Below, piece after piece: positions 27,052 through 64,000 of a DNA stretch of 64,000 bases. Numbering within the stretch: position 1 is the stretch's first letter; every line of letters begins with the position of its first letter. Both the position numbers and the translations under genes were made by a program. The notes beneath the pieces are model-generated. The model was not told the DNA's origin. It saw nothing but the letters and a program-made list of their open reading frames with translations, and did not search any database. Source of the DNA: Ulva prolifera (taxonomy: Eukaryota; Chlorophyta; Ulvophyceae; Ulvales; Ulvaceae); NCBI GenBank assembly GCA_023078555.1, contig CM041201.1:377213-441212 (forward strand), read 5' to 3'.

Positions 27052-30000
27052 CAAAGGACAGAGGCCGGGCAGCGAGCCGTTGCCAGGAATACACACGCAA
27101 ATCCACTCACGCAGTCATGGCACTAGGCCGGGCACGAGCACGTACCACAGCTCGGCCGGTGATGCCAGCCAAAGATTGAAGCCCCGCACGGAGCACAAGA
27201 GCATTCCCCTTGCACAACGCCACACTCAACCGGCGCAGAGCATTCGTCACAAACAAAGCACGGTTCACCTTACCACACCGAGACGCAACCTCCGCCAGCC
27301 GATTCAAGTGATTCATGGCAGGCCGACCCAAGCGACCATGCGTCTCATGCGATAACGGCACGAAACTATACGCATCAGGGTCGTACAACCGATAAGCAGT
27401 GCGTTTCTGCACGTCCCGCGTCTCCGCAGCACCCCCGTCCTCGCGGGCCGCACGGCCGCAATAGGAACCAGCACAGGGGTTCACAACCGACACATCCCCT
27501 ATGCACAAAGGGTCACCCGGCGGCATAAACATGATGTCCCCCAGTTTCTCCTGGGCCACTGCCCTCAACACCTGCGCCAGCGCCGTTGCCTGCGCGGCAG
27601 CGGCCTGCTCCCCAGGCCCCGCCGGACCCTGGCCACCTGGCGCCGCTGCCGCCGCCAGGGCCGCAGCCTGCGCCGCGTCTGGCGCGTGGCGCCCCATTTG
27701 GGCGCTGTGTCCGGCATCGGCGTCGGCGGCCGGAGCAGTCGCAGGTGCCGGCGCCGCGTCCGCACGCGCGACCGGCGGCGGCGGCGGGGCTGCAGGTACC
27801 GGCTCCGCGGGCAAGGTCGCCCCGCGCGAAGGGCCCGCGACCTGTGAGGCGGGCTGGGGCGGCGCAGGGGGGGGCGGGCCCGACGGGCCAGCATGGATCT
27901 GCCTCGGAGCGGCCGCGAGCCGCGCGCGGACGAACGGCGCTGTGCGCGGGATGCGCGTGGACGCCACACACGCGTGGGACCCGATCTCGCGCCATTGTTT
28001 TTCAACGATATTGTGGCGCGAAGTCCAGGTCCCCGCATTGTGTGTGCAATTCATCGCATGGTCGAGATCATGCGGCTGTATGAATGTGCCACATTCGCAG
28101 CGCGAGCCGACCGCATTGGGAGGGGCTGGGGACATGCCCAGGAGATACCTGATGCTCAGCATGATTTCCATGTCAGTCATGCGCAGCGCCTGGGACAGCG
28201 GCAGGGTGCTCGACCAAAGGGTGGCTGCACGGCAAGCACAGCTGCGAAGCCGTGCCAAGTTGCATGCACCCTCGAGCGTGGCGACGTCATGGCTGGCAAG
28301 CAGAGCTGCCCGGCGGCGCAGGGCAACCACCTTAGTGACACGCTGCTGCATACCAGGTAACACCTTGGCGATGGTGTCGCCGCTCGCCGGGCCGGGCAGC
28401 TCCGGATGGAGCTGCTGAGCGACGTTGAGGGCCTGCCAGGTTTCCTGCAAGTGTTGCCCGTGCGGCCCCCGATACGGCTGCATGCACTCGGGGCCTCCTG
28501 CGAATGCCTTTTGGCTCACCGCAGCTGCAGCGAGGTACGCTCCGTCCGCGACCTCCGGCGGCGTGGACATGATGCCCAGGCCTCCAAGGCGCGCTGGAAG
28601 GACGGCTTGTGCGGCCGCACGAAGGTCGTCCCGCGGGACGCGCATGATTACATTCACCGCAGCCAGGACAGACGCCTCCGTCCGGCGCATGTGATCAGAA
28701 ATGTGCGCCCACGGCACCGCCCTGGCGTAGTGCAGCATACGGCGTTGGCAGGACATCGTGAGCAGCAAGAACTGGTCTTGCGCTTTCAGGGGCAGGCTCA
28801 TCATCTTCTCGATGGTGGCGCACACCTTGTCGGCCGTCGCTTCCGCGTGCGCCGACTCGAACGCCGGGGTGCCAATGGGCGTGCCGGTGATGACGGTGCC
28901 CTCCGTGGCATGCGTTATGCCGAGCGTGGCCGCGACGGATCCCGCATGCTGGGGGTCGCGCGAGTAGGCCGTGCACTTGTGCAGCTGGGGCTCCAGCCCG
29001 AGGGGCTCTGCTGCCGAGACCAGCGCACGGAATGCGGCAGCGGCGTCCACGCGATGCCCGGCGATGGTGCAGTCGTCATGATACGCCATGAGGGCGGCCG
29101 TGACCTCCCTCTCGGGTGGCTGGTGCTGGGCCTGCACTGCCTGGAGGGGGCCCTGGAGGGCCAGGGCGAAGAGCAGCGGGCTAGCGCTGATGGGGTCGCC
29201 TTGACGCACGCCGCGCTGCGACGTGATTGCAGCGGTGCCGGGCGGTGCGCCTTCGATGTAGAGATTTGCGGGGAACCTGTAAAGCATGGTGGCGAAGGGC
29301 AGCAGCGCAGGCTTGTGAGACGCAACGGCCTCCAAGATGGCTGCACGGGACATCATGTTGAATGCATTCTTCCAGTCCAGCTGCACAAGCACGACATCGT
29401 CCCACGCTTGCAGCACGGCGCGAGCAGCATGGCCCAGGTTCTGCGCGCCCCCTGGCACCCCGACCCCCACCTGCAGCGGCGCGAGGGAGGCACCTAGGCC
29501 ACTGCACAGGGTCATGGCGCACAGGCTTACCAGGCGCTGCCACGTCTCTGCAATGGCGATAGGGCGGACGCCTCCCTGTGGCTTCTCCTGCGGGAGGAGG
29601 CGGCAGTCCAGCAAGCGCGGGAGGTGTGGCAGCCGGCCGGCGAGGGCCGCGTTCACGAAGCGGTGAATCTCCGTGAATGCGGCCGTGGAGGCCGTGCCGG
29701 CAGCCCGGATGTGCTCATACGTCCACCCCGACAGGCCCGGGCCGCTGCCCTTCGGCAGCTTGTCGAGCAGGGCGAGGAGCGTCGCCTCGTCGATTTGCAG
29801 CGGGGGCGCGGGCTCGGCGGGCTGGGTGTCGGGGGGGAGCGCTTCTGCGGGATGCAGGTGCCGCAGCTCCTCATGCACTTCCGGGGTGTACCTGGCGATG
29901 GGCGGCGCCTCCACTTTCTCCGCGCCTTTGCGGACATTACCGTCGCTCAGTGACCTGTGGACAGAGCTCGCCAGGCGGCGATCCTGGTTCTGATTCATTC

Positions 30001-30113
30001 TGCGCTTCTGGCTTGGAGTGGGCTCCGCAAGCCTGGGCTCCTCGCCGTCCATGAACAGCGTGATGCATGTACGAGCGCGGCGCGCCGTGCCGTCCCCTCC
30101 CTTCAGCGACAGA

Positions 30114-30118
<5 letters not shown>
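27048..30118 (-). mobile_element. LINE copy 2: non-LTR retrotransposon with an open RT/nuclease-like frame
   Basis: The most complete copy of the family in the window. It runs from a 5' edge at about 30118 to the GTAAC terminus at 27048, with a 3' UTR of only about 60 bases after the stop. Both sides abut (TA)n tracts, so the target duplication, if any, is hidden in the microsatellite. The 5' end probably lacks an upstream domain, since only about 120 residues precede the reverse transcriptase and no zinc-finger or Myb-like domain is visible there. Diverged short relatives of the tail occur at 42.5, 46.3, 54.8 and 55.0 kb. Confidence 0.92.
27107..30118 (-). CDS. LINE reverse transcriptase with zinc knuckle and nuclease-like C-terminus
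   Basis: Open for about 1000 codons up to the element's 5' edge. Reverse transcriptase blocks in order: KLPKGSGPGLSGWTYEHIR, RLLPQEKPQGGVRPIAI, catalytic Asp in QLDWKNAFNMMSR, GVRQGDPIS, catalytic pair in AYHDDCTIAG, and GLEPQLHKCTAYS. Then a Cys/His knuckle (CECGTF...HDLDHAMNC) followed by SRHNIVEKQWREIG, the order seen in R2-type elements. A low-complexity Pro/Ala linker of about 130 residues leads to a C-terminal block (GDIMF, GDVSVVNP, VQKRTAYRLYDP, SHETHGRLG) that fits a restriction-like endonuclease with Asp/Asp/Lys-type residues. The product would nick its target and copy its own RNA there. Oddity: two extra residues after GDPIS compared with copy 3 (PISASPLLF against PISPLLF), next to the active site. 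Assignment to the R2/NeSL-like group rests on domain order. Confidence 0.85.
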
Positions 30119-30161
<43 letters not shown>

Positions 30162-30168
30162 CGTATGG
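30119..30168. repeat. (AT)n microsatellite and inverted flank right of LINE copy 2
   Basis: About 20 AT units at 30119-30158, overlapping by one base TCTCCGTATGG (30158-30168), the reverse complement of the sequence at 26961-26971. Confidence 0.95.
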
Positions 30169-32464
30169 ATCCGGGCCCCCAGGAGCTCCGCACTCTCAAA
30201 GGCCCAGCCCCAGCCTCGCAAACTGCCTCACACCCACACGATCTCGCGCAGAAACCCCTCCCCCATGGATCTCCAGAGCACAACGCTCAGCCCGTGGACA
30301 GAGCTCCACCGAGCAGCCGCCAACGGCGCCCTGGGCAGAGCCCGAGAGCAAAACGGCGGTCACCGGCGGATGATGGCGCGATAGGGTCGGAGGGTCTCGG
30401 CCGACCGCTCAGACCTGCTCCCCGGCGTGCGCCGAGAGGTCATTTGACATGTCCATCCCCATGAGGCCTCCTTTGCCCGCGTGGTGTGTCAGCAGCGGTG
30501 TGCTAGCAGCGGGGCACCAGCGCGGCTGCTGGCACGACAGCATGCGACATCCCGCGCGCTGCTGCGCCGACTGCGCGGCGCTTGACTGTTGTTGCAGCGG
30601 CGACTTCAGGCCTGCATCTAGATGGCGGCGGTCGGGTTGGGCCGGCATGCATGCTGCGGGGCTGCCCCTTTCTGTCCTCCAGGTACGCCCCGGAGCCTGC
30701 AGCATGCTGGCATGTGCACACCTGCGCCCCTCACGCGACACCAAGATCGGCAGGCAGGAAGCCCCTACCCAGGCAGACATGCTCTCATGGCCCTCGGAAG
30801 CGCGCCTTGGGATCGTTAACTCGTCCGCCTTCGAGTTCGTGACCACTTTCACATCTGCTCGGGCGAGATCTGCGAATAGATGCTGTACAACGTTTGTCGA
30901 TTTTGGACGCAACCGTTGGGCTCCGTGCAGTTTGGAAGTACTCTGGAATTGACAAACGGGCATGTCACCATGCATGCATATCATGCATGGCCGCCCGCAG
31001 GGCCCGCATCCAAGGGCACAGACCTCAGGCGTAGTCCCCCTGTGGCAATCCAGTGGTATAGCGGCCATATCACTGGATTGCCACACCCCCACGACGGCTG
31101 CTGGCCAGGGCGGCTACCGTCACGGCTTGGTACGATGCATGGCACTAGCAGTATCAGCACCCCCCTCCAATCTGTCCGCCCTCCGGGGCGCTGAGTCCGG
31201 CCAAGGCCTTCCAGACATTGTTCCTGTGATGCCTCATTGATATGCTGACTGTGTTGAAAGGGTACTTCCAACGTACCACATCAGAGCCGCTGCCCTGCCT
31301 CTACGTGCGTGCATGCGCAATTACATCGTCTGTGCCCGCGGCCGAGCCGGGCGCCCGGGCAGCCTCGCTCACATGCAACCTTACTTTTCTCTTGCTGCGT
31401 TGCATGTACAGGCCTCTTGTGCATCCCATCTGGGGAGCTGGGGACGGATCGTCCCGAGTGAGGGATCTGTGCATGTCGCTGTGGACATCACAGGGCCCCT
31501 GGATGGCATGATGTCGCCGATGTGGCCTCCTGTACCTCAGCAGATTTGTTGCGTACAGCGGCTGCAGCAAGTGCTTCCGCTTGCAGTCAGTGAGACGCCA
31601 TCCGACATTGCGACGTGAGTCAGTACCAACAACAGCCGTGCGTGAACACCTCGCTCAGCACAGGGGGAAGCCCTGTGAGTTGCGTATGGTTGACTGAAGG
31701 GGTTGGTCCAGGTGGTTTGTCCCTTCGGCATGTGGTCCCGTTCATTTGGAGTTGCCAATGTCCTCTTCAGGATACGGCAAAGTAAATCCAGATCTACTTT
31801 ACTTTTGCTTTACGCGTCCAGGGGCATTTGCCTGAGCGCCGGCTTTGGGGGAGTGGACAAGGGAGACGTTGCTCACTGCACCTTGATGCTTTGCAGATGC
31901 GGCATTTGAATTCTGCCCGTGGTTGCTTTCTGCCTGTAGCTGCTGTCGATGGGAACGCCAAACGTCGGAGACAGGGCCACCCTGCCCCGCAGCTGTCCCC
32001 AGTATCCCTGCCCAGCGAAGAAGAGATTGTGCTTTTGCGGGGACAGGGGTCCGGATGCCGCTGGTACACTGACATTGAAGATGCTGCAGTGCGGGGGCTG
32101 GCCATGCACGAGACAGCAATCGCCTCATGCCGGTCGCCACGGCTGTTGTCCAGATGTGTACTGAGATCTCGAACTACATGCTCTGGTTGATGCCGGTTCA
32201 GCAGGACGCTGAGACATGACCATGTTTCTGCGTTCACACACAGTCCCACTTGTTTTGTCTGAACGCTGTTGTACGAAGCAAGCATTGCGGTCTCTTGTGA
32301 TCGACAGGCTTTTTACACCACAGTCGGTCTGAGGTACGCCCCAAAGCGGGATTTTCCTGGAAGCAATGAGAGCCCTTTCTCATTCGCCAAGTATATTTCA
32401 TCATCGCCCTGCAGTGCCGTGAGTACATTGCGCGCCTGCTGTAGGACGCACAAGCACCATCGGC
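30169..32464. other. Gap between LINE copy 2 and the epimerase, no assigned gene
   Basis: Weak exon-like pieces only. On the minus strand DLARADVKVVTNSKADELT (about 30780-30870) is bounded by a possible acceptor and a GTAGGG donor. On the plus strand VHVAVDITGPLDGMM (about 31470-31515) and AVVQMCTEISNYMLWLMP (about 32140-32195) look protein-like but are not linked to a family I can name. A long hairpin lies at 31041-31085. The left breakpoint of the first tandem duplication corresponds to about 32330. Confidence 0.35.
31041..31085. repeat. 19-bp inverted repeat, 7-base loop
   Basis: The left arm TGTGGCAATCCAGTGGTAT pairs with the right arm ATATCACTGGATTGCCACA, with one mismatch or wobble, around the loop AGCGGCC. 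It could be a small foldback element or an RNA hairpin if transcribed. Confidence 0.9.
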
Positions 32465-35979: not shown

Positions 35980-38335
35980 TCACCCAAGCGGCAGCCTGAG
36001 CAACTTCCTGGCCCTCCGAAAGCCCCTGCGCGGCTTCTTCTGAGACATCTTGGACACATCCACCCCACTGCCCGAAAGAACATGCACCTGCGCCACGCAC
36101 ACAGGAGCGCCTATGCCAGAGGGTACCCTTGCCACCACTGACCCTCCGCCCTCACCCAGCCCATCGCCCCACTCTAGACCACTCTCACCAGCACCTGACA
36201 CATCGTCGCGCCCCACGGGTGGGCCATCCCCGCAGCCGAAATTCTCTTCACATTTGCCGAGAGATGGTGCCCTCAGCACTGGCTGCTCCACCTCCAGGTC
36301 TTTGGATGGTGACAGCGCTGGCTGAGAGTCCAGCGTGTTGAAGCTCTCGAGCAGAGCACTGATGTCCTGGCCGTGCTGCGGGCTCTGCGCGAGCCCCGTC
36401 AGCGAGTCGCTGTTCTCAAGCACAGGCGTCTCGAGCAGCATGCCCGATGGTGCTTCATCACTGCGCTGAACTGCCCCACTCGCCAGCGACTCCGTGCGGA
36501 CTGGAGGGGGGCTGAGGCCTTGGGGTGGAGGGAGGCCTGGATGGGGACCGAGACCTTGGGGTGGAGGGAGGCCTGGGGGTGGACCGCGGCCTTGGGGTGG
36601 AGGGAGGCCTGAAGGGGGGCCGAGCTGTTGGGGTGGAGGGAGGCCTGGAGGGGGACCGAGGCCTTGGGGGCCAGCGAGGCCTGGAGGGGGACCACGGCCT
36701 TGGGGTGGAGGGAGGCCTGGGGGTGGAACAAGGCCTTGGGGTGGAGGCAGGTTTGGGGGTGGACCGAGGCCTTGGGGTGGAGGGAGGCCAGGAGGGGGAC
36801 CGCGGCCTTGGGGTGGAGGGAGGCCAGGAGGGGGACCGCGGCCTTGGGGTGGAGGGGAGCCAGGAGGAGGACCGCGGCCTTGGGGTGGAGGGAGGCCTGA
36901 AGGGGGGCCGAGCTGTTGGGGTGGAGGGAGGCCTGGAGGGGGACCGCGGCCTTGGGGTGGAGGGAGGCCTGGAGGGGGGCCGAGGCCTTGGGGTGGAGGG
37001 AGGCCTGGAGGGGGACCGAGGCCTGAGGGGCCAGCGAGGCCAGGAGGGGGACCACGGCCTTGGGGTGGAGGGAGGCCAGGAGGAGGACCGAGGTCTTGGG
37101 GTGGAGGGAGCTTCCCGGCTGCACAGCACCGGACGATCAGCAACATGGAGCCGTCAGCACTGCGCTGTGGGTTGGGGTGGCTGTAGCATGCACGAGCGGG
37201 GGCGAGGGAGGGCGCACTGGCCGGGGGGGCGGCGGCGACTCGCGGCGGTGGCACGCATAGCCGCCTTGGCCGGTAGGTCCACAGCCTGGTGGGAGGCATG
37301 CGATGCCTGATGTTGGGGCTGAGTGCTGTGAGGATGAGGATCCGCAGGTGTTTCTCGTCAGGCAAGAAACCTGCCAGCGTGCCGTTCTTGTGGCATTCCC
37401 GGGCGGTCTCCGGACGCATACCCGTCATCATCTCGACGAGCGTCAGCGCCAGTGGCTGCGTGTCGATGCTGAAATGCACTGGCATCACTCCGCCCTCAGA
37501 CAGCTCTGGGACTCTGTAGCCGGGAGTGCCGTAGGGGCCGCACAGCGGGGTCCCTTCTTCCATCCTGATCGCCGCCCCCCAGTCGGCCAGCTTGGGGTTG
37601 CCGGCCTTGTCCAGGAGGATGTTGGCCGGCTTGATGTCGCCGTGGATGATGCCGCGCTCATGTGCAGTAATCAGAAGCGGCAGGATCTTTGTCAACATTG
37701 CCCAGCACTCGTGAACAGTGAAGAGCGGCTGCAAGCGGGTATCGAAGCCCTGGTCACCGCTGCGCGCTGTGGCGTTCCTCATCCGCTGCCGGATCTCGTC
37801 GTGTAGGGTGCCGGGGTACAGCTCAAAGAGGATCGCATGCACGCCTCGGCCGTCGTCGGTCGGGGACCAGGCTTTGACTGTCGGCATGCATGCCTGGTCC
37901 GCCAGCACGGTGTAGGCGTTGAGCTCGTGGAGGAGCGCACACTCTGCCCCTTCCTTGGCCATTTTGAGAGCGCCGAAGTGTAAGACGTTGTTGTCGTCCA
38001 TGGCCCTGGCTTTGTACACCTGCACAGCACACGAAATTGCAGGGAGCTGCCACACGGTGTGAGGCTAAGATGCAGTGTAAGCGGGGCGAGGCTCTCGCAG
38101 AGTCCGTTCGACATGGCCACCTCGTGGCAATGAGCTGCATGGCACTCAGGGGAGGGGTGGTTCGCACGTCGCCGTTACCGCCGCTGCCGAGCAGGCCTAT
38201 GATGGACTTAGCATCGCGACTGAAGCGGGGGCTGCTGAAGCCCCTTTCGACCGCGAGCTCGAAGCCGGGGTCGACGACTCTGCCATTGGGGCTCTGCAGG
38301 CGTTCGCCCAAAACTTGCACCTCTGTCTTCTGCAT
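35980..38335 (-). CDS. Protein kinase A copy with Pro/Gly repeat tail
   Basis: Exons (complement): 38168-38335 and 35980-38019; 735 residues. Glycine loop GSGGNGD (ending residue 56) is completed across the intron by VYKA; Lys75 in GALKMAK; helix-C Glu88 in LLHELNAY; catalytic loop IIHGDIKPANILL (His182, Asp184, Lys186, Asn189); metal-binding DWG at 202-204 instead of DFG; GTPGYRVPEL in place of APE. The key catalytic residues are present, so activity is likely despite HGD and DWG variants. After the kinase domain comes a low-complexity stretch, about 17 repeats of a 12-residue unit like GPPPGLPPPQGL, an acidic Ser-rich region, and a basic C-terminus (KKPRRGFRRARKLLRLPLG). The repeat resembles a scaffold or SH3/WW-binding tail; partners are unknown. 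An intron before the repeats is possible but reading through keeps the frame. Exon 2 is identical in protein to copy B. Confidence 0.85.
36500..37110. repeat. 36-bp coding minisatellite in kinase A
   Basis: About 17 units of GGTGGAGGGAGGCCTGGAGG plus GGGACCGAGGCCTTGG (plus-strand reading). Because 36 is a multiple of three, the array is open in most frames on both strands; only the minus frame continuous with the kinase domain is supported as coding. Confidence 0.95.
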
Positions 38336-42640: not shown

Positions 42641-42673
42641 GTACATATCCATGACTATGCATACATTCATACA

Positions 42674-45202
42674 TTGCCCCTATCGCCATTGCCCCTATCG
42701 CCATTGCAGAGACGTGGCAGCGCCTGGTAAGCCTGTGCGCCATGACCCTGTGCAGTGGCCTAGGTGCCTCCCTCGCGCCGCTGCAGGTGGGGGTCGGGGT
42801 GCCAGGAGGCGCGCAGAACCTGGGCCATGCTGCGCGCGCCGTGCTGCAAGCGTGGGACGATGTCGTGCTTGTGCAGCTGGACTGGAAGAATGCATTCAAC
42901 ATGATGTCCCGTGCAGCCATCTTGGAGGCCGTTGCGTCTCACAAGCCTGCGCTGCTGCCCTTCGCCACCATGCTTTACAGGTTCCCCGCAAATCTCTACA
43001 TCGAAGGCGCACCGCCCGGCACCGCTGCAATCACGTCGCAGCGCGGCGTGCGTCAAGGCGACCCCATCAGCCCGCTGCTCTTCGCCCTGGCCCTCCAGGG
43101 CCCCCTCCAGGCAGTGCAGGCCCAGCACCAGCCACCCGGGAGGGAGGTCACGGCCGCCCTCATGGCGTATCATGACGACTGCACCATCGCCGGGCAGCGC
43201 GTGGACGCCGCCGCCGCATTCCGTGCGCTGGTCTCGGCAGCAGAGCCCCTCGGGCTGGAGCCCCAGCTGCACAAGTGCACGGCCTACTCGCGCGACCCCC
43301 AGCATGCGGGATCCGTCGCGGCCGCGCTCGGCATAACGCATGCCACGGAGGGCACCGTCATCACCGGCACGCCCATCGGCACCCCGGCGTTCGAGTCGGC
43401 GCACGCGGAAGCGACGGCCGACAAGGTGTGCGCCACCATCGAGAAGATGATGAGCCTGCCCCTGAAAGCGCAAGACCAGTTCTTGCTGCTCACGATGTCC
43501 TGCCAACGCCGTATGCTGCACTACGCCAGGGCGGTGCCGTGGGCGCACATTTCCGATCACATGCGCCGGACGGAGGCGTCTGTCCTGGCTGCGGTGAATG
43601 TAATCATGCGCGTCCCGCGGGACGACCTGCGTGCGGCCGCACAAGCCGTCCTTCCAGCGCGCCTCGGAGGCCTGGGCATCATGTCCACGCCGCAGGAGGT
43701 CGCGGACGGAGCGTACCTCGCTGCAGCTGCGGTGAGCCAAAAGGCATTCGCAGGAGGCCCCGAGTGCGTGCAGCCGTTCCGGGGGCCGCACGGGCAACAC
43801 TTGCAGGAAACCTGGCAGGCCCTCAACGTCGCTCAGCAGCTCCATCCGGAGCTGCCCGGGCCGGCGAGCGGCGACACCATCGCCAAGGTGTTACCTGGTA
43901 TGCAGCAGCGTATCACTAAGGTGGTTGCCCTGCGCCGCCGGGCGGCTCTGCTTGCCAGCCATGACGTCGCCACGCTCGAGGGTGCATGCAACTTGGCACG
44001 GCTTCGCAGCTGTGCTTGCCGTGCAGCCACCCTTTGGTCGAGCACCCTGCCGCTCTCCCAGGCGCTGCGAATGACTGACATGGAAATCATGCTGAGCATC
44101 AGGTATCTCCTGGGCATGTCCCCAGCCCCTCCCAATGCGGTCGGCTCGCGCTGCGAATGTGGCACATTCATACAGCCGCATGATCTCGACCACGCGATGA
44201 ATTGCACACACAATGCGGGGACCTGGACTTCGCGCCACAATATCGTTGAAAAACAATGGCGCGAGATCGGGTCCCACGCGTGTGTGGCATCCACGCGCAT
44301 CCCGCGCACAGCGCCGTTCGTCCGCGCGCGGCTCGCGGCCGCTCCGAGGCAGATCCATGCTGGCCCATTGGGCCCGGCCCCCCCTGCTCCGCCCCAGCCC
44401 GCCTCCCAGGTCGCGGGCCCTTCGCGTGGGGCGACCTTGCCCGCGGCGCCGATGCATGCAGCCCCGCTGCCGCCGCCAACCGCGCGCGCGGACGAGGCGC
44501 CGGCACCTACGCCTGCTCCGGCCGCCGACGCCGATGCTGGACACAGCGCCCAGATGGGGCGCCACGTGCCAGACGCAGCGCGGGCTGCGGCCCTGGCGGC
44601 GGCGGCGGCGCCGGGTGGTCAGGATCCGGCGGGGCCTGGGGAGCAGGCCGCTGCCGCGCAGGCAACGGCGCTGGATCAGGTGTTCAGGGCAGTGGCCCAG
44701 GAGAAACTGGGGGACATCATGTTTATGCCGCCGGGTGACCCTTTGTGCATAGGAGATGTGTCGGTTGTGAACCCCTGTGCCGGTTCCTATTGCGGCCGTG
44801 CGGCCCGCGAGGACGGGGGTGCTGCGGGACGCGGAACGTGCAGAAACGCACTGCTTATCGTTTGTACGACCCTGATGCGTGTAGTTTTGTGCCGTTGTCG
44901 CATGAGACGCATGGTCGATTAGGACGGCCTGCCATGAATCACTTGAATCGGCTGGCGGAGGTTGCGTCTCGGTGTGGCAAGGTGAACCGTGCTTTGTTTG
45001 TGACGAATGCTCTGCGCCGGTTGAGTGTGGCGTTGTGCAAGGGGAATGCTCTTGTGCTCCGTGCGGGGCTTCAATCTTTGGCTGGCATCACCGGCCGAGC
45101 TGTGGTACGTGCTCGTGCCCGGCCTAGTGCCATGACTGCGTGAGTGGGTTTGCGTGTGTATTCCTGGCAACGGCTCGCTTCCCGGCCTCTGTCCTTTGTA
45201 AC
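42674..45202 (+). mobile_element. LINE copy 3: 5'-truncated non-LTR retrotransposon
   Basis: It begins inside the reverse transcriptase (about AETWQRLVSLCAMTL) and ends at CTTTGTAAC. A 12-bp target duplication TACATTCATACA lies at 42662-42673 and 45203-45214. The frame is open from 42742 for about 700 codons and includes LDWKNAFNMMSR, GVRQGDPISPLLF, AYHDDCTIAG and the CECG...HAMNC knuckle. A single-base change near 44825 shifts the frame before the nuclease-like end (44850-45143), so it cannot make a whole protein. At the 5' junction the 15-bp unit CATTGCCCCTATCGC is present twice. It is very close to copy 2 and so fairly recent. Confidence 0.93.
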
Positions 45203-45214
45203 TACATTCATACA

Positions 45215-45236: not shown

Positions 45237-45289
45237 TATATTCATACACCCGGCCTAGTGCCATGACTGCGTGAGTGGATTTGCGTGTG

Positions 45290-45578
45290 TGTTGTGGGAT
45301 ATCCATATCTGGGGATCCAAGAATATAGATGACATAATCAAGGGAGGAGTCATCTAACAAAGGACTCGTTGCTTCAGGTGAGCCCTAGTGGTTAGAGCAT
45401 GTCGTGTGTACTCTAGAGGTCACCGGTTCAATTCTTACTTTCATTTCTGCCGCGCGACTTTACGCGTTGGCAAGGTACGCTCCCCTCCACGTCGTCATGC
45501 ACAGTCAGCATGCTTACCAGCTCAGGCACGCGCATTAACCCCTGTGCACACTCGATGAGACTAACACGCGTCTTGACA
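45290..45578 (+). repeat. Left LTR of the TRIM
   Basis: 289 bp, TG...CA ends; includes the tRNA-like stretch at about 45378-45440. Confidence 0.95.
45378..45440 (+). other. tRNA-like RNA polymerase III promoter boxes inside the LTR
   Basis: TAGTGGTTAGAGC (45386-45398) resembles a tRNA A box with the D arm, and GGTTCAATTC (45425-45434) a B box; they are 39 bases apart, within the tRNA range. AGAGGTCACCGGTTCAA between and over them is close to the variable and T-arm of real tRNAs. The D and T stems no longer pair well, so it is tRNA-derived rather than a working tRNA. The same boxes recur in the right LTR at 45948-45960 and 45987-45996. Confidence 0.6.
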
Positions 45579-45851
45579 GGTATCGGTGAGCAGACTTCGT
45601 AATCTGCCTTACAGCTTCCATCTTCATTACACCTTCCGCTGTGTGAGCTCCTCCCGAGCGATCGCATCCCAGTCAGCATAGCTCTCGAGCTTAAGGGAGT
45701 CCCAATTATATGAGTTCGGTTATAGCGGGTTGGGCCCCCGTGGACTCGGGACGCGAAGAGAAGGTTCCAACATTCCATCAGGAGCATCGAAGATATCCCA
45801 CAGTTATCAGATCTGGATCTCCCTACGCTCGATCCTCGTTAAGGGGGGAAG

Positions 45852-46140
45852 TGTTGTGGGATATCCATATCTGGGGATCCAAGAATATAGATGACATAAT
45901 CAAGGGAGGAGTCATCTAACAAAGGACTCGTTGCTTCAGGTGAGCCCTAGTGGTTAGAGCATGTCGTGTGTACTCTAGAGGTCACCGGTTCAATTCTTAC
46001 TTTCATTTCTGCCGCGCGACTTTACGCGTTGGCAAGGTACGCTCCCCTCCACGTCGTCATGCACAGTCAGCATGCTTACCAGCTCAGGCACGCGCATTAA
46101 CCCCTGTGCACACTCGATGAGACTAACACGCGTCTTGACA
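45852..46140 (+). repeat. Right LTR of the TRIM
   Basis: 289 bp, no difference from the left LTR found by eye. Confidence 0.95.
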
Positions 46141-46204
46141 GTGTGTATCCCTGGCAACGGCTCGCTGCCCGGCCTCTGTCCTTTGTTACTACATTCATAC
46201 ATTG

Positions 46205-48218: not shown

Positions 48219-50574
48219 TCACCCAAGCGGCAGCCTGAGCAACTTCCTGGCCCTCCGAAAGCCCCTGCGCGGCTTCTTCTGAGACATCTTGGACACATCC
48301 ACCCCACTGCCCGAAAGAACATGCACCTGCGCCACGCACACAGGAGCGCCTATGCCAGAGGGTACCCTTGCCACCACTGACCCTCCGCCCTCACCCAGCC
48401 CATCGCCCCACTCTAGACCACTCTCACCAGCACCTGACACATCGTCGCGCCCCACGGGTGGGCCATCCCCGCAGCCGAAATTCTCTTCACATTTGCCGAG
48501 AGATGGTGCCCTCAGCACTGGCTGCTCCACCTCCAGGTCTTTGGATGGTGACAGCGCTGGCTGAGAGTCCAGCGTGTTGAAGCTCTCGAGCAGAGCACTG
48601 ATGTCCTGGCCGTGCTGCGGGCTCTGCGCGAGCCCCGTCAGCGAGTCGCTGTTCTCAAGCACAGGCGTCTCGAGCAGCATGCCCGATGGTGCTTCATCAC
48701 TGCGCTGAACTGCCCCACTCGCCAGCGACTCCGTGCGGACTGGAGGGGGGCTGAGGCCTTGGGGTGGAGGGAGGCCTGGATGGGGACCGAGACCTTGGGG
48801 TGGAGGGAGGCCTGGGGGTGGACCGCGGCCTTGGGGTGGAGGGAGGCCTGAAGGGGGGCCGAGCTGTTGGGGTGGAGGGAGGCCTGGAGGGGGACCGAGG
48901 CCTTGGGGGCCAGCGAGGCCTGGAGGGGGACCACGGCCTTGGGGTGGAGGGAGGCCTGGGGGTGGAACAAGGCCTTGGGGTGGAGGCAGGTTTGGGGGTG
49001 GACCGAGGCCTTGGGGTGGAGGGAGGCCAGGAGGGGGACCGCGGCCTTGGGGTGGAGGGAGGCCAGGAGGGGGACCGCGGCCTTGGGGTGGAGGGGAGCC
49101 AGGAGGAGGACCGCGGCCTTGGGGTGGAGGGAGGCCTGAAGGGGGGCCGAGCTGTTGGGGTGGAGGGAGGCCTGGAGGGGGACCGCGGCCTTGGGGTGGA
49201 GGGAGGCCTGGAGGGGGGCCGAGGCCTTGGGGTGGAGGGAGGCCTGGAGGGGGACCGAGGCCTGAGGGGCCAGCGAGGCCAGGAGGGGGACCACGGCCTT
49301 GGGGTGGAGGGAGGCCAGGAGGAGGACCGAGGTCTTGGGGTGGAGGGAGCTTCCCGGCTGCACAGCACCGGACGATCAGCAACATGGAGCCGTCAGCACT
49401 GCGCTGTGGGTTGGGGTGGCTGTAGCATGCACGAGCGGGGGCGAGGGAGGGCGCACTGGCCGGGGGGGCGGCGGCGACTCGCGGCGGTGGCACGCATAGC
49501 CGCCTTGGCCGGTAGGTCCACAGCCTGGTGGGAGGCATGCGATGCCTGATGTTGGGGCTGAGTGCTGTGAGGATGAGGATCCGCAGGTGTTTCTCGTCAG
49601 GCAAGAAACCTGCCAGCGTGCCGTTCTTGTGGCATTCCCGGGCGGTCTCCGGACGCATACCCGTCATCATCTCGACGAGCGTCAGCGCCAGTGGCTGCGT
49701 GTCGATGCTGAAATGCACTGGCATCACTCCGCCCTCAGACAGCTCTGGGACTCTGTAGCCGGGAGTGCCGTAGGGGCCGCACAGCGGGGTCCCTTCTTCC
49801 ATCCTGATCGCCGCCCCCCAGTCGGCCAGCTTGGGGTTGCCGGCCTTGTCCAGGAGGATGTTGGCCGGCTTGATGTCGCCGTGGATGATGCCGCGCTCAT
49901 GTGCAGTAATCAGAAGCGGCAGGATCTTTGTCAACATCGCCCAGCACTCGTGAACAGTGAAGAGCGGCTGCAAGCGGGTATCGAAGCCCTGGTCACCGCT
50001 GCGCGCTGTGGCGTTCCTCATCCGCTGCCGGATCTCGTCGTGCAGGGTGCCGGGGTACAGCTCAAAGAGGATCGCATGCACGCCTCGGCCGTCGTCGGTC
50101 GGGGACCAGGCTTTGACTGTCGGCATGCATGCCTGGTCCGCCAGCACGGTGTAGGCGTTGAGCTCGTGGAGGAGCGCACACTCTGCCCCTTCCTTGGCCA
50201 TTTTGAGAGCGCCGAAGTGTAAGACGTTGTTGTCGTCCATGGCCCTGGCTTTGTACACCTGCACAGCACGCGACATTGCAGGGAGCTGCCACACGGTGTG
50301 AGGCTAAGATGCAGTGTCCGCGGGGCAAGGCTCTCGCAGAGTCCGCCCGACATGGCCACCTCGTGCCAATGAGCTGCATGGCACTCAGGGGAGGGGTGGT
50401 TCGCACGTCGCCGTTACCGCCGCTGCCGAGCAGGCCTATGATGGACTTAGCATCGCGACTGAAGCGGGGGCTGCTGAAGCCCCTTTCGACCGCGAGCTCG
50501 AAGCCGGGGTCGACGACTCTGCCATTGGGGCTCTGCAGGCGTTCGCCCAAAACTTGCACCTCTGTCTTCTGCAT
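48219..50574 (-). CDS. Protein kinase B copy
   Basis: Exons (complement): 50407-50574 and 48219-50258; 735 residues. Exon 2 matches copy A residue for residue, including the number of Pro/Gly repeats; exon 1 also matches. The only differences I see are in the intron and upstream DNA (for example near 50270-50365). It has the same Lys75, Glu88, HGD, Asn189 and DWG features. Near-identity over kinase and flank shows that A and B come from the later of the two duplications. Both could be expressed, as splice sites and upstream regions are kept. Confidence 0.85.
48739..49349. repeat. 36-bp coding minisatellite in kinase B
   Basis: Same unit and copy number as in kinase A, encoding the GPPPGLPPPQGL-type repeat on the minus strand. 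Confidence 0.95.
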
Positions 50575-57031: not shown

Positions 57032-59495
57032 TCACCCAAGCGGCAGCCTGAGCAGCTTCCTGGCCCTCCGAAAGCCCCTGCGCGGCTTCTTCTGAGACGT
57101 CTTGGACACATCCACCCCACTGCCCGAAGGAACATGCACCTGCGCCACGCACACAGGAGCGCCTATGCCAGAGGGTACCCTTGCCACCACTGACCCTCCG
57201 CCCTCACCCAGCCCATCGCCCCACTCTAGGCCACCCGTACCAGCACCTGACACATCGTCGCCCCCCACGGGTGGGCCATCCCTGCAGCCGAAATTCTCTT
57301 CACATGTGCCGAGAGATGGTACTCTCAGCACCGGCTGCTCCACCTCCAGGTCTTTGGATGGTGACAGCGCTGGCTGAGAGTCCAGCGTGTTGAAGCTCTC
57401 GAGCAGAGCACTGATGTCCTGGCCGTGCTGCGGGCTCTGCGCGAGCCCCGTCAGCGAGTCGCTGTTCTCAAGCACAGGCGTCTCGAGCAGCATGCCCGAT
57501 GGTGCTTCATCACTGCGCTGAACTGCCCCACTCGCCAGCGACTCCGTGCGGACTGGAGGGGGGCTGAGGCCTTGGGGTGGAGGGAGGCCTGGATGGGGAC
57601 CGAGACCTTGGGGTGGAGGGAGGCCTGGGGGTGGACCGCGGCCTTGGGGTGGAGGGAGGCCTGAAGGGGGGCCGAGCTGTTGGGGTGGAGGGAGGCCTGG
57701 AGGGGGACCGAGGCCTTGGGGGCCAGCGAGGCCTGGAGGGGGACCACGGCCTTGGGGTGGAGGGAGGCCTGGGGGTGGAACAAGGCCTTGGGGTGGAGGC
57801 AGGTTTGGGGGTGGACCGAGGCCTTGGGGTGGAGGGAGGCCAGGAGGGGGACCGCGGCCTTGGGGTGGAGGGAGGCCAGGAGGGGGACCGCGGCCTTGGG
57901 GTGGAGGGGAGCCAGGAGGAGGACCGCGGCCTTGGGGTGGAGGGAGGCCTGAAGGGGGGCCGAGCTGTTGGGGTGGAGGGAGGCCTGGAGGGGGACCGCG
58001 GCCTTGGGGTGGAGGGAGGCCTGGAGGGGGGCCGAGGCCTTGGGGTGGAGGGAGGCCTGGGGGTGGACCGAGGCCTTGGGGTGGAGGGGGGCCAGGAGGG
58101 GGACCGCGGCCTTGGCGGCCAGCGAGGCCTGGAGGGGGGCCGAGGCGTTGGGGTGGAGGGAGGCCAGGAGGAGGACCGCGGCCTTGGGGGCCAGCGAGGC
58201 CAGGAGGGGGACCACGGCCTTGGGGTGGAGGGAGGCCTGGGGGTGGACCGAGGCCTTGGGGTGGAGGGCGCTTCCCGGCTGCACAGCACCGGACGATCAG
58301 CAACACGGAACCGTCAGCACTGCGCTGTGGGTTGGGGTGGCTGTAGCATGCATGAGCGGGGGGGAAAAAGGGCGCACTGGCCGGGGGGGCGGCGGCGACT
58401 CGCGGCGGTGGTACGCATAGCCGCCTTGGCCGGTGGGTCCACAGCCTGGTGGGAGGCATGCGATGCCTGATGTTGGGGCTGAGTGCTGTGAGGATGAGGA
58501 TCCGCAGGTGTTTCTCGTCAGGCAAGAAACCTGCCAGCGTGCCCTTCTTGTGGCATTCCCGGGCGGTCTCCGGACGCATACCCGTCATCATCTCGACGAG
58601 CGTCAGCGCCAGCGGCTGCATGTCGATGCTGAAATGCACTGGCATCACTCCTCCCTCAGACAGCTCTGGGACTCTGTAGCCGGGAGTGCCGTAGGGGCCG
58701 CACAGCGGGGTCCCTTCTTCCATCCTGATCGCCGCCCCCCAGTCGGCCAGCTTGGGGTTGCCGGCCTTGTCCAGGAGGATGTTGGCCGGCTTGATGTCGC
58801 CGTGGATGATGCCGCGCTCATGTGCAGTAATCAGAAGCGGCAGGATCTTTGTCAACATCGCCCAGCACTCGTGAACAGTGAAGAGCGGCTGCAAGCGGGT
58901 ATCGAAGCCCTGGTCACCGCTGCGCGCTGTGGCGTTCCTCATCCGCTGCTGGATCTCGTCGTGTAGGGTGCCAGGGTACAGCTCAAAGAGGATCGCATGC
59001 ACGCCGCGGCCGTCGTCGGTCGGGGACCAGGCTTTGACTGTCGGCATGCATGCCTGGTCCGCCAGCACGGTGTAGGCGTTGAGCTCGTGGAGGAGCGCAC
59101 ACTCTGCCCCTTCCTTGGCCATTTTGAGAGCGCCGAAGTGTAAGACGTTGTTGTCGTCCATGGCCCTGGCTTTGTACACCTGCACAGCACACGAAATTGC
59201 AGGGAGCTGCCACACGGTGTGAGGCTAAGATGCAGTGTCCGCGGGGCGAGGCTCTCGCAGAGTCCGCCCGACATGGCCACCTCGTGGCAATGAGCTGCAT
59301 GGCACTCAGGGGAGGGGTGGTTCGCACGTCGCCGTTACCGCCGCTGCCGAGCAGGCCTATGATGGACTTAGCATCGCGACTGAAGCGGGGGCTGCTGAAA
59401 CCCCTTTCGACCGCGAGCTCGAAGCCGGGGTCGACGACTCTGCCATTGGGGCTCTGCAGGCGTTCGCCCGAAACTTGCACCTCTGTCTTCTGCAT
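57032..59495 (-). CDS. Protein kinase C copy, longer repeat tail
   Basis: Exons (complement): 59328-59495 and 57032-59179; 771 residues. The kinase core is the same as in A and B (Lys75, Glu88, HGD, Asn189, DWG). It differs by three extra 12-residue repeats (36 residues) and by substitutions, for example in the acidic tail (CEENFGCRDGPPVGGDD) and KKGTLAGF near the domain end. It is the most diverged copy and lies next to the intact farnesyltransferase gene, so it probably represents the other product of the first duplication. Confidence 0.85.
57552..58270. repeat. 36-bp coding minisatellite in kinase C
   Basis: About 20 units, three more than in A or B, with the extra units near 58060-58200. 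Confidence 0.95.
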
Positions 59496-62058: not shown

Positions 62059-63805
62059 TCAGGCACAAGCCACCCTCGCCGCTGCAGCATGATACCATCC
62101 TGCATGAATCGGGTCCATCGATGCCAGAGCATCCACCATCGCGTGCACGGCCGCCGACGCCTGCTCGCGGTCACGCCTGCTCCCTACGAGCATCGAAATC
62201 CTCGCGAGGGCTGTGCCACCCGGTGCCTCGGGCGACGCTGCTGCTGCCAGGTACAGTTTGAAGAGGGCTGCGCGCGCAGGCACGCACGCCGGGTCTGCCC
62301 TGGCTGCATCGATCGCAGCCGGGAAGGCCCCGCTGGACACAAGCTGCAGTGCCTCCACGATCTCGGACTCCTGGCGCTCAGAGAGCTGCACGCCTGCATG
62401 CATTCCCGTGGCTGCCTGCATGGCCGCACCAAGCACATGCTTCTTCACTGGCCTGACAACTCCTCATTGACATGTACAGTGGAATGCACAGATGAAACAC
62501 ATGCACATGCCACAATTTGGACTTACGTGGTATCAGAGGACCAGGCTGTCCAGGTCGATGATATGCAGACCTATCGAGGCGAGACCCATGGAATGGCTGT
62601 CTGAATGCACCATGTATGAATAGGGAATACAATCTTCCGATCTGCATCTCTTACATCGCCTCGCGAAGTTGCTGATTGCGGGCGCAGCTGTGACCCTGGA
62701 TCAGGAGAAGGGTGTTGTAGCATACCTGTTTCAAATTCACATCGAAGAACATCCAGAATGACGTCTCTCAGACCAACAAGGTAGTTCCAGGCGCTCTCGT
62801 TGTGTGGCATGCTGAAGATGTGGTCCTTGACAAACTGCAGCTCTCGATCGAGCCAGTCGCGGATGGAGCCGGTCAAGAACCGTGGTTGCAGGTCGCTGGG
62901 GTCCTCTTGGAGCGCCTTGTCTGACTGATCTGGCGACTGAGCCTCGAGGTCGGCCTGCCGCTTCAAGCGAGCTGAGAGACTCTTTCCCAGGAGCCACCCA
63001 CGCTGGTTCCACGCCGAGTTGTTTCGAGGGTCTTCAGCGACCATCTGCTGTGCGTAAGCCCACTCCTGCTTCCAGCGTCCAAAGTGTGCCGCAAGCACCT
63101 GCAGATCAGATCAGCCGCACAATTTTGCAGACAGTCAACTTTGACAATGCTTCACCGAGGCCGGCTCCACGCAGCCTGAAAAACACACTACAGGAAACTC
63201 AGCACCTGCCTGTGGGCCCAGATATGATAGTTTTTGGCGTCCAGTTCAAGGCAAGAAGCAGCAAACTCCATCTCTCTTTCAGCGTTGAGTGGGCCCATGC
63301 GCAATGCACACTTACGACGATGATTCCACAGCTGATAATTCTTCGCATTCGAATTTGCGATTGCTAGGCATATTTTCCATTCCTCGTCCATGTCTGCCTT
63401 CGTTGCGACCAGACACTGCATACGTTCATCAAGCCCGTTCACAACGTCATTGTGTTGCATATGAGCTGATCCAAGCAGCCCGCTGGGATAGGCAAGTTCA
63501 CAACAAGATGACGGTATCAATGATGCCGTGTCACATACCTGGAATCGATACTGCCAAGCTGTGTAATGCGAGGCGCTCAGCGTTATGCACTTCTCTGTCA
63601 GCCTCAAAGCTCTTTCGGACAGTTCACCCGCTTCCATACATGCGTATAGAAGCCCGAATGTATCTTCATATTCAGCAGAATACTGTATATCGACTGCACC
63701 CCTAGCGGCATCCGGGATCGGAAGAGGTCGAACATCGGACCACTCCGCTGCTTCGCTGAGCAATTCGACGTCGCTCATCAGATCAGAGCTCATCGATATG
63801 TGCAA
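62059..63805 (-). CDS. FNTA: Protein farnesyltransferase/geranylgeranyltransferase type I alpha subunit
   Basis: Exons (complement): 63539-63805, 63206-63415, 62726-63098, 62059-62393; 1185 bases, 394 residues, phases agree. The PFTA helical-pair repeats are clear: HYTAWQYRF, NYQLWNHRR, NYHIWAHRQ, NNSAWNQRGW, NESAWNYLVGL, and the C-terminal MDPIHAGWY. This subunit pairs with a beta subunit to attach farnesyl or geranylgeranyl groups to CaaX proteins in the cytosol. The N-terminus (EWSDVRPLPIPD, IQYSAEYEDTF, LSERALRLTEKCI) matches the family. The start could be Met at 63805 or at 63793. It is the only intact copy; its 3' part is present as remnants at 40.8-41.2 and 53.0-53.45 kb. Confidence 0.9.
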
Positions 63806-64000
63806 CGAGGGTGCTCATACATCCACACGTCATCATCCAAACGATTAGCCTCTTCCTTCAGCGTGGAAAGCAATTCTTGCAGAATGGCTTGCTGAGTCTC
63901 CTGGCGATTGTCTTCGGCCGATGTTGCAACTTTGCGATCAGACAGATCTGCAGCAGCGTCACCTATCACAATGACAAGGTCCGCGCAATTGCACATCGCG
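63790..64000 (-). CDS. Unassigned partial frame upstream of FNTA
   Basis: A minus-strand frame runs in from the window edge, with QAILQELLSTLKEEANRLDD followed by DVWMYEHPR. It could be the last exon of a gene continuing outside the window or a 5' exon with a donor near 63810. It overlaps the FNTA start by 16 bases, which argues against both ends being right. No family recognised. Confidence 0.3.
   Translation of the reverse strand, partial: AMCNCADLVIVIGDAAADLSDRKVATSAEDNRQETQQAILQELLSTLKEEANRLDDDVWMYEHPRCTYR

Follow-up and report, generated by a model that had tools for sequence, protein, structure and literature searches.

A short repeat in the genome of the green alga Ulva prolifera raises the question of what kind of element carries tRNA-like promoter boxes within its long terminal repeats (LTRs), where these boxes came from, and whether they are used by RNA polymerase III (Pol III). 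The repeat is located at 45290–46140 of the 64,000-nucleotide stretch of DNA that was analyzed (to be referred to as the window, with a G+C content of ~58%). Comparison of the window with itself finds a direct repeat of 291 nt with 100% identity, between 45289–45579 and 45851–46141. The whole element is 851 bp in length, and its two LTRs are identical over 289 bp. The LTR begins with TGTTGTGGGA and ends with CGTCTTGACA, and GTGTG flanks the element on both sides. The features are listed below, with their positions in the window and the comparison on which they are based.

45118..45214, + strand: related empty site, a paralogue that lacks the element and is similar to its two flanks when joined (ungapped alignment)
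45285..45289, + strand: 5′ copy of the target site duplication, GTGTG (flank comparison; empty-site paralogue)
45290..45578, + strand: 5′ LTR, 289 bp, TGTTG...TGACA (direct-repeat alignment)
45375..45435, + strand: stretch in the 5′ LTR very probably derived from tRNA-Thr(UGU) (alignment to host tRNA-Thr(UGU))
45381..45398, + strand: box A-like part, AGCCCTAGTGGTTAGAGC, with a degenerate upstream half (LTR alignment, weight matrix)
45425..45434, + strand: box B-like part, GGTTCAATTC (LTR alignment, weight matrix)
45438..45446, + strand: interrupted T-tract, CTTTCATTT, directly 3′ of box B, a putative weak Pol III terminator
45579..45590, + strand: primer binding site, GGTATCGGTGAG, pairing over 12 nt with the 3′ end of initiator tRNA-Met
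45579..45851, + strand: gene-free interior, 273 bp
45841..45851, + strand: polypurine tract, AAGGGGGGAAG, the last bases of the interior
45852..46140, + strand: 3′ LTR, the same sequence as the 5′ LTR (direct-repeat alignment)
45937..45997, + strand: stretch in the 3′ LTR very probably derived from tRNA-Thr(UGU) (identity of the 3′ LTR with the 5′ LTR)
46141..46145, + strand: 3′ copy of the target site duplication, GTGTG (flank comparison)

The initial annotation had described identical LTRs of 289 bp, a gene-free interior of 273 bp and a GTGTG duplication, and this description is borne out by the repeat and flank comparisons. The polypurine tract that it reported is also present, as AAGGGGGGAAG at 45841–45851. 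The empty site and the joined flanks can be aligned for 97 nt without a gap at the junction, and they differ at 4 positions; this indicates an insertion with one 5-bp duplication. With two LTRs, a primer binding site (PBS), a polypurine tract (PPT), no coding capacity and a size of about 1 kb or less, the element is almost certainly a non-autonomous miniature LTR retrotransposon (TRIM). SINEs have no LTRs, PBS or PPT, and they use target-primed reverse transcription. A SINE identity was rejected for the element, as it has LTRs, a PBS and a PPT. What it has in common with tRNA-derived SINEs, as these are described in PMC10886601, is that both are short, non-autonomous retroelements with a tRNA-derived internal promoter, a putative one in the TRIM.

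The empty site is supplied by repeated sequence downstream of a reverse transcriptase frame (42655–44922, + strand, RVT_1). The TRIM is just downstream of this frame, and it probably sits in the tail of a non-LTR retrotransposon. A similar reverse transcriptase frame of the non-LTR type, with the likeness judged by eye, is found at 27107–30286 (− strand). Three near-identical open frames on the minus strand, at 35980–38064 (Pkinase), 48219–50303 and 57032–59224, carry long PPPQGLGPPPGL repeats. The regions of these three frames resemble large tandem duplications, spaced by ~12.2 and 8.8 kb. At 63188–63814 (− strand), probably in a host gene at the edge of the window, there are protein prenyltransferase alpha subunit repeats (PPTA).

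The TRIM is a member of a family in this genome. All 33 first-look candidates match the interior query, and in 29 cases the match covers its entire 273 bp. A 29-mer from the start of the LTR, with up to 3 mismatches, is found at 172 places in the 88.9-Mb genome, and the exact pattern of the box A–box B pair is found 94 times; the reversed control gives 0 in both searches. Identical 5-bp duplications flank 18 of the 22 single elements that have both outer LTR ends. Among the remaining single elements, the duplications agree at 4 of 5 bases in L035 and L036 and disagree in L013 and L029. Twenty further LTR places were fetched, giving 19 complete LTRs between identical 5-bp duplications and one truncated LTR. 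The target site duplication therefore has a fixed length of 5 bp, as is required for the insertion of an LTR retrotransposon. The two LTRs are identical in 13 of the 19 equal-length pairs of single elements, which argues for recent activity of the TRIM family.

One locus, L009 (G000:C7, ~4650413–4651824), is an LTR-interior-LTR-interior-LTR array inside a single CAGGG duplication. Its two interiors differ in haplotype and PBS type, which would fit a joining of two element RNAs in the course of reverse transcription. This tandem array was left out of the counts of single elements, and L022, which is the same place as L009, was dropped from the LTR, box and haplotype comparisons. The alignment of 68 LTRs that is used below omits the 5′ LTR of L017, which has an internal duplication of ~31 bases within the tRNA-like stretch. 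Incomplete LTRs, among them L037, L038 and L102, were excluded from the alignment and the box comparison.

The LTRs of the family contain a stretch that is, very probably, a degenerate copy of part of a host tRNA-Thr(UGU) gene. This stretch corresponds to LTR positions 86–146, which align to the host gene (L046, L047). For the comparison, 63 of 1780 candidates were scored in finding host tRNAs, and 26 tRNA strings were taken from 33 fetched loci, some of which are one tRNA read with and without an additional terminal base. Among these strings, the best match is tRNA-Thr(UGU) for all 31 distinct LTR sequences, that of the window included. The stretch is present in all 68 complete aligned LTRs. 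Moreover, it is retained in all eight LTRs that were fetched for lacking the exact boxes, chosen from the first 100 of the 172 listed LTR-start places. LTR starts without the exact boxes were therefore rejected as a tRNA-free parent family. Other copies with the boxes thus exist in the genome (94 exact pairs, the 68 aligned LTRs and, with the stretch retained, these eight further LTRs), whereas a lack of such copies would have counted against the proposal of the initial annotation.

It is very improbable that the tRNA similarity is due to chance. The window copy belongs to the less tRNA-like part of the family, and its tRNA score of 33, which was reached by none of 483 genomic segments, was also reached by 1 of 1000 shuffles. 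On the other hand, the more tRNA-like copies score 45–50, the best of them 50, compared to a maximum of 34 in 1000 dinucleotide shuffles. The best copies also contain a 10-nt run, TCATAAGGTC, that is identical to tRNA-Thr(UGU) and in register with it. In addition, chance would not be expected to give one tRNA species as the best match for every distinct LTR sequence.

The stretch is not recognized as a complete tRNA. ARAGORN finds no tRNA in the window and none in 24 loci. Rfam finds no tRNA in the window at the gathering score and none in five other loci, and its matches to the element at E values up to 10 include none of tRNA type. These results speak for the remnant of a promoter and against a tRNA gene. 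The tRNA-like character that had been proposed for the LTR therefore stands in the alignment to tRNA-Thr(UGU), but not as a tRNA call by ARAGORN or Rfam. Rfam also gives no match to 5S rRNA, the mark of Cassandra elements, in the window or in the element. With a tRNA-Thr gene as the query for a SINE precursor, only three tRNA-like places were found; the same search missed the TRIM LTRs as well, and it is thus too insensitive to exclude such a precursor.

Within the tRNA-like stretch, TAGTGGTTAGAGC starts at LTR position 97 and GGTTCAATTC at position 136. These positions confirm the pair of boxes, 39 bases apart, that had been noted inside each LTR. As a feature of the family, the pair holds (94 exact copies in the genome), but the T at position 97 does not, being a minority state (T in 16, C in 51 and A in 1 of the 68 LTRs). 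Position 103 is one T shorter in 25 of the 68 LTRs. Both of these states, C at 97 and the shorter 103, are common in the family and closer to the tRNA than the window copy is. Of the 68 LTRs, 66 have an intact box B and 62 an intact core AGTGGT(T)AGAGC. The usual core of box B is GGTTCGA. Two more diverged copies have variants of box B, GGTTCGATTC (L104) and GGTTCGATTT (L107), that are closer to this usual core. Box A is degenerate in its upstream half, and its differences from TRGYNNARNGG are at T8 and G10 or, alternatively, amount to an insertion.

With a weight matrix from host tRNAs, box B scores 15.0 bits. The box A that is preferred by the matrix is at another site, with a score of 5.2 bits, and it is located 55 nt before box B, compared to 42–45 in host tRNAs. 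The combined score of the window LTR (20.2) is higher than those of all 1826 background segments (maximum 17.9), and with 5.2 bits for box A and 15.0 for box B this combined score rests on box B. Five other LTRs were scored; four of them are in the range of 20.2–20.9, and L107 (15.3) is inside the background. By eye, the order and spacing of the boxes are near native, with 39 nt from AGTGG to GTTC compared to 38 in the host tRNA gene. Changes that are common to at least 3 loci are found at 7 of the 61 tRNA-like sites, 4 of the 85 upstream sites and 5 of the 143 downstream sites in the 68 LTRs. Box conservation was rejected as a sign of selection, since the tRNA-like stretch has no excess of conservation over the remaining LTR.

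The interior begins with 12 bases, GGTATCGGTGAG, that are fully complementary to the 3′ end of initiator tRNA-Met (gene L071, with CCA addition assumed). Opposite the terminal A of the tRNA there would be the last A of the LTR, so that these two bases would not pair. Two variants of the PBS are observed, GGTATCGGTGAG in 20 of 29 interiors, which fits L071, and GGTATCGATGAG in the other 9, which fits L069 and L070. The initiator tRNA genes were sought by one exact pattern, which gave three hits, and further variants may exist. In all 29 interiors, the PBS variant goes together with the state of interior column 32. PBS variation was rejected as proof of repeated copying from the tRNA because of this linkage, which indicates two inherited lineages, each fitting a primer gene in the genome. 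Priming of reverse transcription by initiator tRNA-Met at the 12-nt PBS is strongly supported, and the PPT would prime the second strand, judging from the anatomy.

Reverse transcriptase and integrase would be supplied in trans by an autonomous element, probably an initiator-tRNA-primed Copia, since the length of the duplication and the type of PBS agree. Integration of the TRIM duplicates 5 bp. The Copia element L083 has an LTR pair, an initiator-tRNA PBS (TGGTATCGGTGA) and a 5-bp duplication. In the Copia element L082, the primer site (~1646–1670) is complementary to the anticodon half, not the 3′ end, of initiator tRNA-Met, with the tRNA match made by eye. This anticodon-half primer site is like those of the fungal Copia elements described in PMC10886601. 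The third Copia region, L081, has no LTR pair in the fetched stretch. Compared with the TRIM, the three Copia regions have 11 nt in common at the PBS or nothing there, and no shared sequence was found in them beyond the PBS. Out of 150 listed RVT_2 sites, from 676 first-look candidates, these regions are the 3 that were read, so that the partner may exist elsewhere. A search with a 15-mer of the shared PBS gave 34 places, three of them outside TRIM interiors. These three were rejected as the partner; they are another LTR family, which shares just those 15 nt of the PBS. The autonomous elements that were read share at most 15 nt with the TRIM, at the PBS, and the partner was not found among them. 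The loci L078, L079 and L080 belong to an LTR family in which a long PBS for the initiator tRNA, TGGTATCGGTGAG, is soon followed by the start of an open frame; the sequence of this family is unrelated to that of the TRIM.

TRIMs with tRNA-derived stretches in their LTRs have been described by Kojima in 2024 and named Helenus, and the name TRIMp3 was proposed to cover Cassandra and Ajax as well (PMC10886601). By its anatomy, the element can be assigned to the Helenus/TRIMp3 type; of the published motifs, it lacks the T of box A. As in Helenus, each of the two LTRs contains a tRNA-like stretch that includes a box A and a box B, and there are a PBS, a PPT, no coding capacity and solo LTRs. Its size of 851 bp compares with a published range of 311–1263. 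According to the same description, duplications of 5 bp are found in fungal and plant members, the 3′ end of initiator tRNA-Met is a known primer in some fungal Helenus, and most members contain no recognizable working tRNA, all as observed here (PMC10886601). The motifs given for most members are TRGCY, YGG and GGTTC (PMC10886601); GGTTC and TGG are present in the element, and its box A is GAGCC, without the T. Further differences from Helenus are the green-algal host and the presence of a close source tRNA (Thr-UGU) in the same genome. The host genome contains 38 matches to the chlorophyll a/b-binding family, and the one such protein that was compared with the PDB (from L073) resembles chlorophyll a/b-binding proteins at up to 330 bits in a single domain, which places the host in the green lineage; its 88.9 Mb and the G+C content of the window agree with a green alga. 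The host table of that paper has fungi, animals and, as the only plant, Selaginella, with no alga, and its text mentions algae once, for TRIMs in general (PMC10886601). For Helenus itself, Pol III transcription is expected, not proven. A meeting report from 2026 repeats the Helenus finding (PMC12859917).

The initial annotation had suggested an analogue of Cassandra, and a TRIM-sized family with a tRNA-derived stretch in its LTRs agrees with this. As Cassandra is described in PMC7215508 and PMC10853983, both are TRIMs with promoter sequence from a small-RNA gene in their LTRs, both have a methionine PBS, and both form tandem LTR-interior-LTR arrays, one of them here (L009). In comparison, the Cassandra promoter is derived from 5S rRNA and its LTRs contain terminators, whereas the stretch here is tRNA-derived and has no T4 terminator. 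TRIMs have also been reported in Chlamydomonas, Volvox and a red alga (Gao et al. 2016, PMC4717578). These are likewise short, non-coding LTR elements in algae, but the main text of that paper does not contain the terms tRNA and polymerase III, and it describes no tRNA-derived LTR.

The tRNA-derived stretch would most likely act as an internal type-2 Pol III promoter, and use of the LTR boxes by Pol III is slightly favored. TFIIIC would bind box B and the weaker box A, and Pol III would start near position 86 of the 5′ LTR. The RNA would cross the interior into the 3′ LTR, and would either end weakly at the interrupted T-tract or read through to the flank. The region of this T-tract (CTTTCATTT, LTR positions 147–160) is the same in 60 of the 68 LTRs. 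Weak termination at the T-tract would give the RNA a repeated end of ~70 nt, short as in Cassandra. If termination fails, the read-through RNA could still undergo reverse transcription. TTTT is absent from the 851-bp element, but it is also absent from 1105 of 2526 window pieces of the same length, and its absence was therefore rejected as evidence of Pol III selection. The first TTTT is located 1278 bp downstream of the end of the element, so that a Pol III transcript would be long unless the weak terminator works. TTTT is found in one of the 68 LTRs (L023), and L107 has T5 after box B.

Another possible reading, to which we give a minority weight, is that the LTR carries an old tRNA or SINE fragment, the tRNA-like stretch, as an inert passenger, and that Pol II transcribes the element from a conventional promoter in the LTR, as is the case for most TRIMs. 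The weak box A and the lack of a canonical Pol III terminator in the element favor this reading, as does a stretch that is at least as variable among the copies as the remaining LTR. Moreover, a TATA-like sequence, GAATATAGATG, is seen by eye at LTR positions 32–42, ~45–55 bp upstream of the stretch. However, Cassandra is reported to be transcribed from the Pol III promoter in its LTR (PMC10886601, PMC7215508). A box B that is intact in 66 of the 68 LTRs also speaks against an inert fragment. In addition, the commonest shared change in the downstream half of box A, the presence or absence of a T at position 103, is a length difference that is also found among host tRNA D-loops.

In sites that bind only TFIIIC, box B is strong and box A is weak, and this combination is present in the LTR. 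The stretch could accordingly be a TFIIIC-binding or chromatin-boundary site, or an RNA packaging structure, and not the promoter for the transposition RNA. We consider this unlikely, as the order and spacing of the boxes are those of a host tRNA gene and the precedent of TRIMp3 favors a promoter. The best explanation overall, and in our assessment a probable one, is a TRIM of the Helenus/TRIMp3 type that has a Pol III promoter derived from tRNA-Thr, is primed by initiator tRNA-Met, and is mobilized in trans. A more specific version can be put forward only tentatively, that this green alga independently made its own LTR Pol III promoter from its tRNA-Thr(UGU) gene, with a leaky T-tract, an RNA that ends in the 3′ LTR, and a short tRNA-derived R region as in Cassandra.

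The initial annotation knew of no described algal example, and no Helenus or tRNA-derived LTR in an alga was found in the open-licence literature, among the matches listed. This part of the claim stands, but the kind of element itself had already been published in 2024 as Helenus/TRIMp3 (PMC10886601), so that only the algal host is possibly new. The element extends the TRIMs with tRNA promoters to a chlorophyte, and it suggests that LTR elements have captured small-RNA promoters independently once more. With a young family, and with the likely source tRNA and the primer tRNAs in the same compact genome, the question of Pol III transcription is directly testable in this alga.
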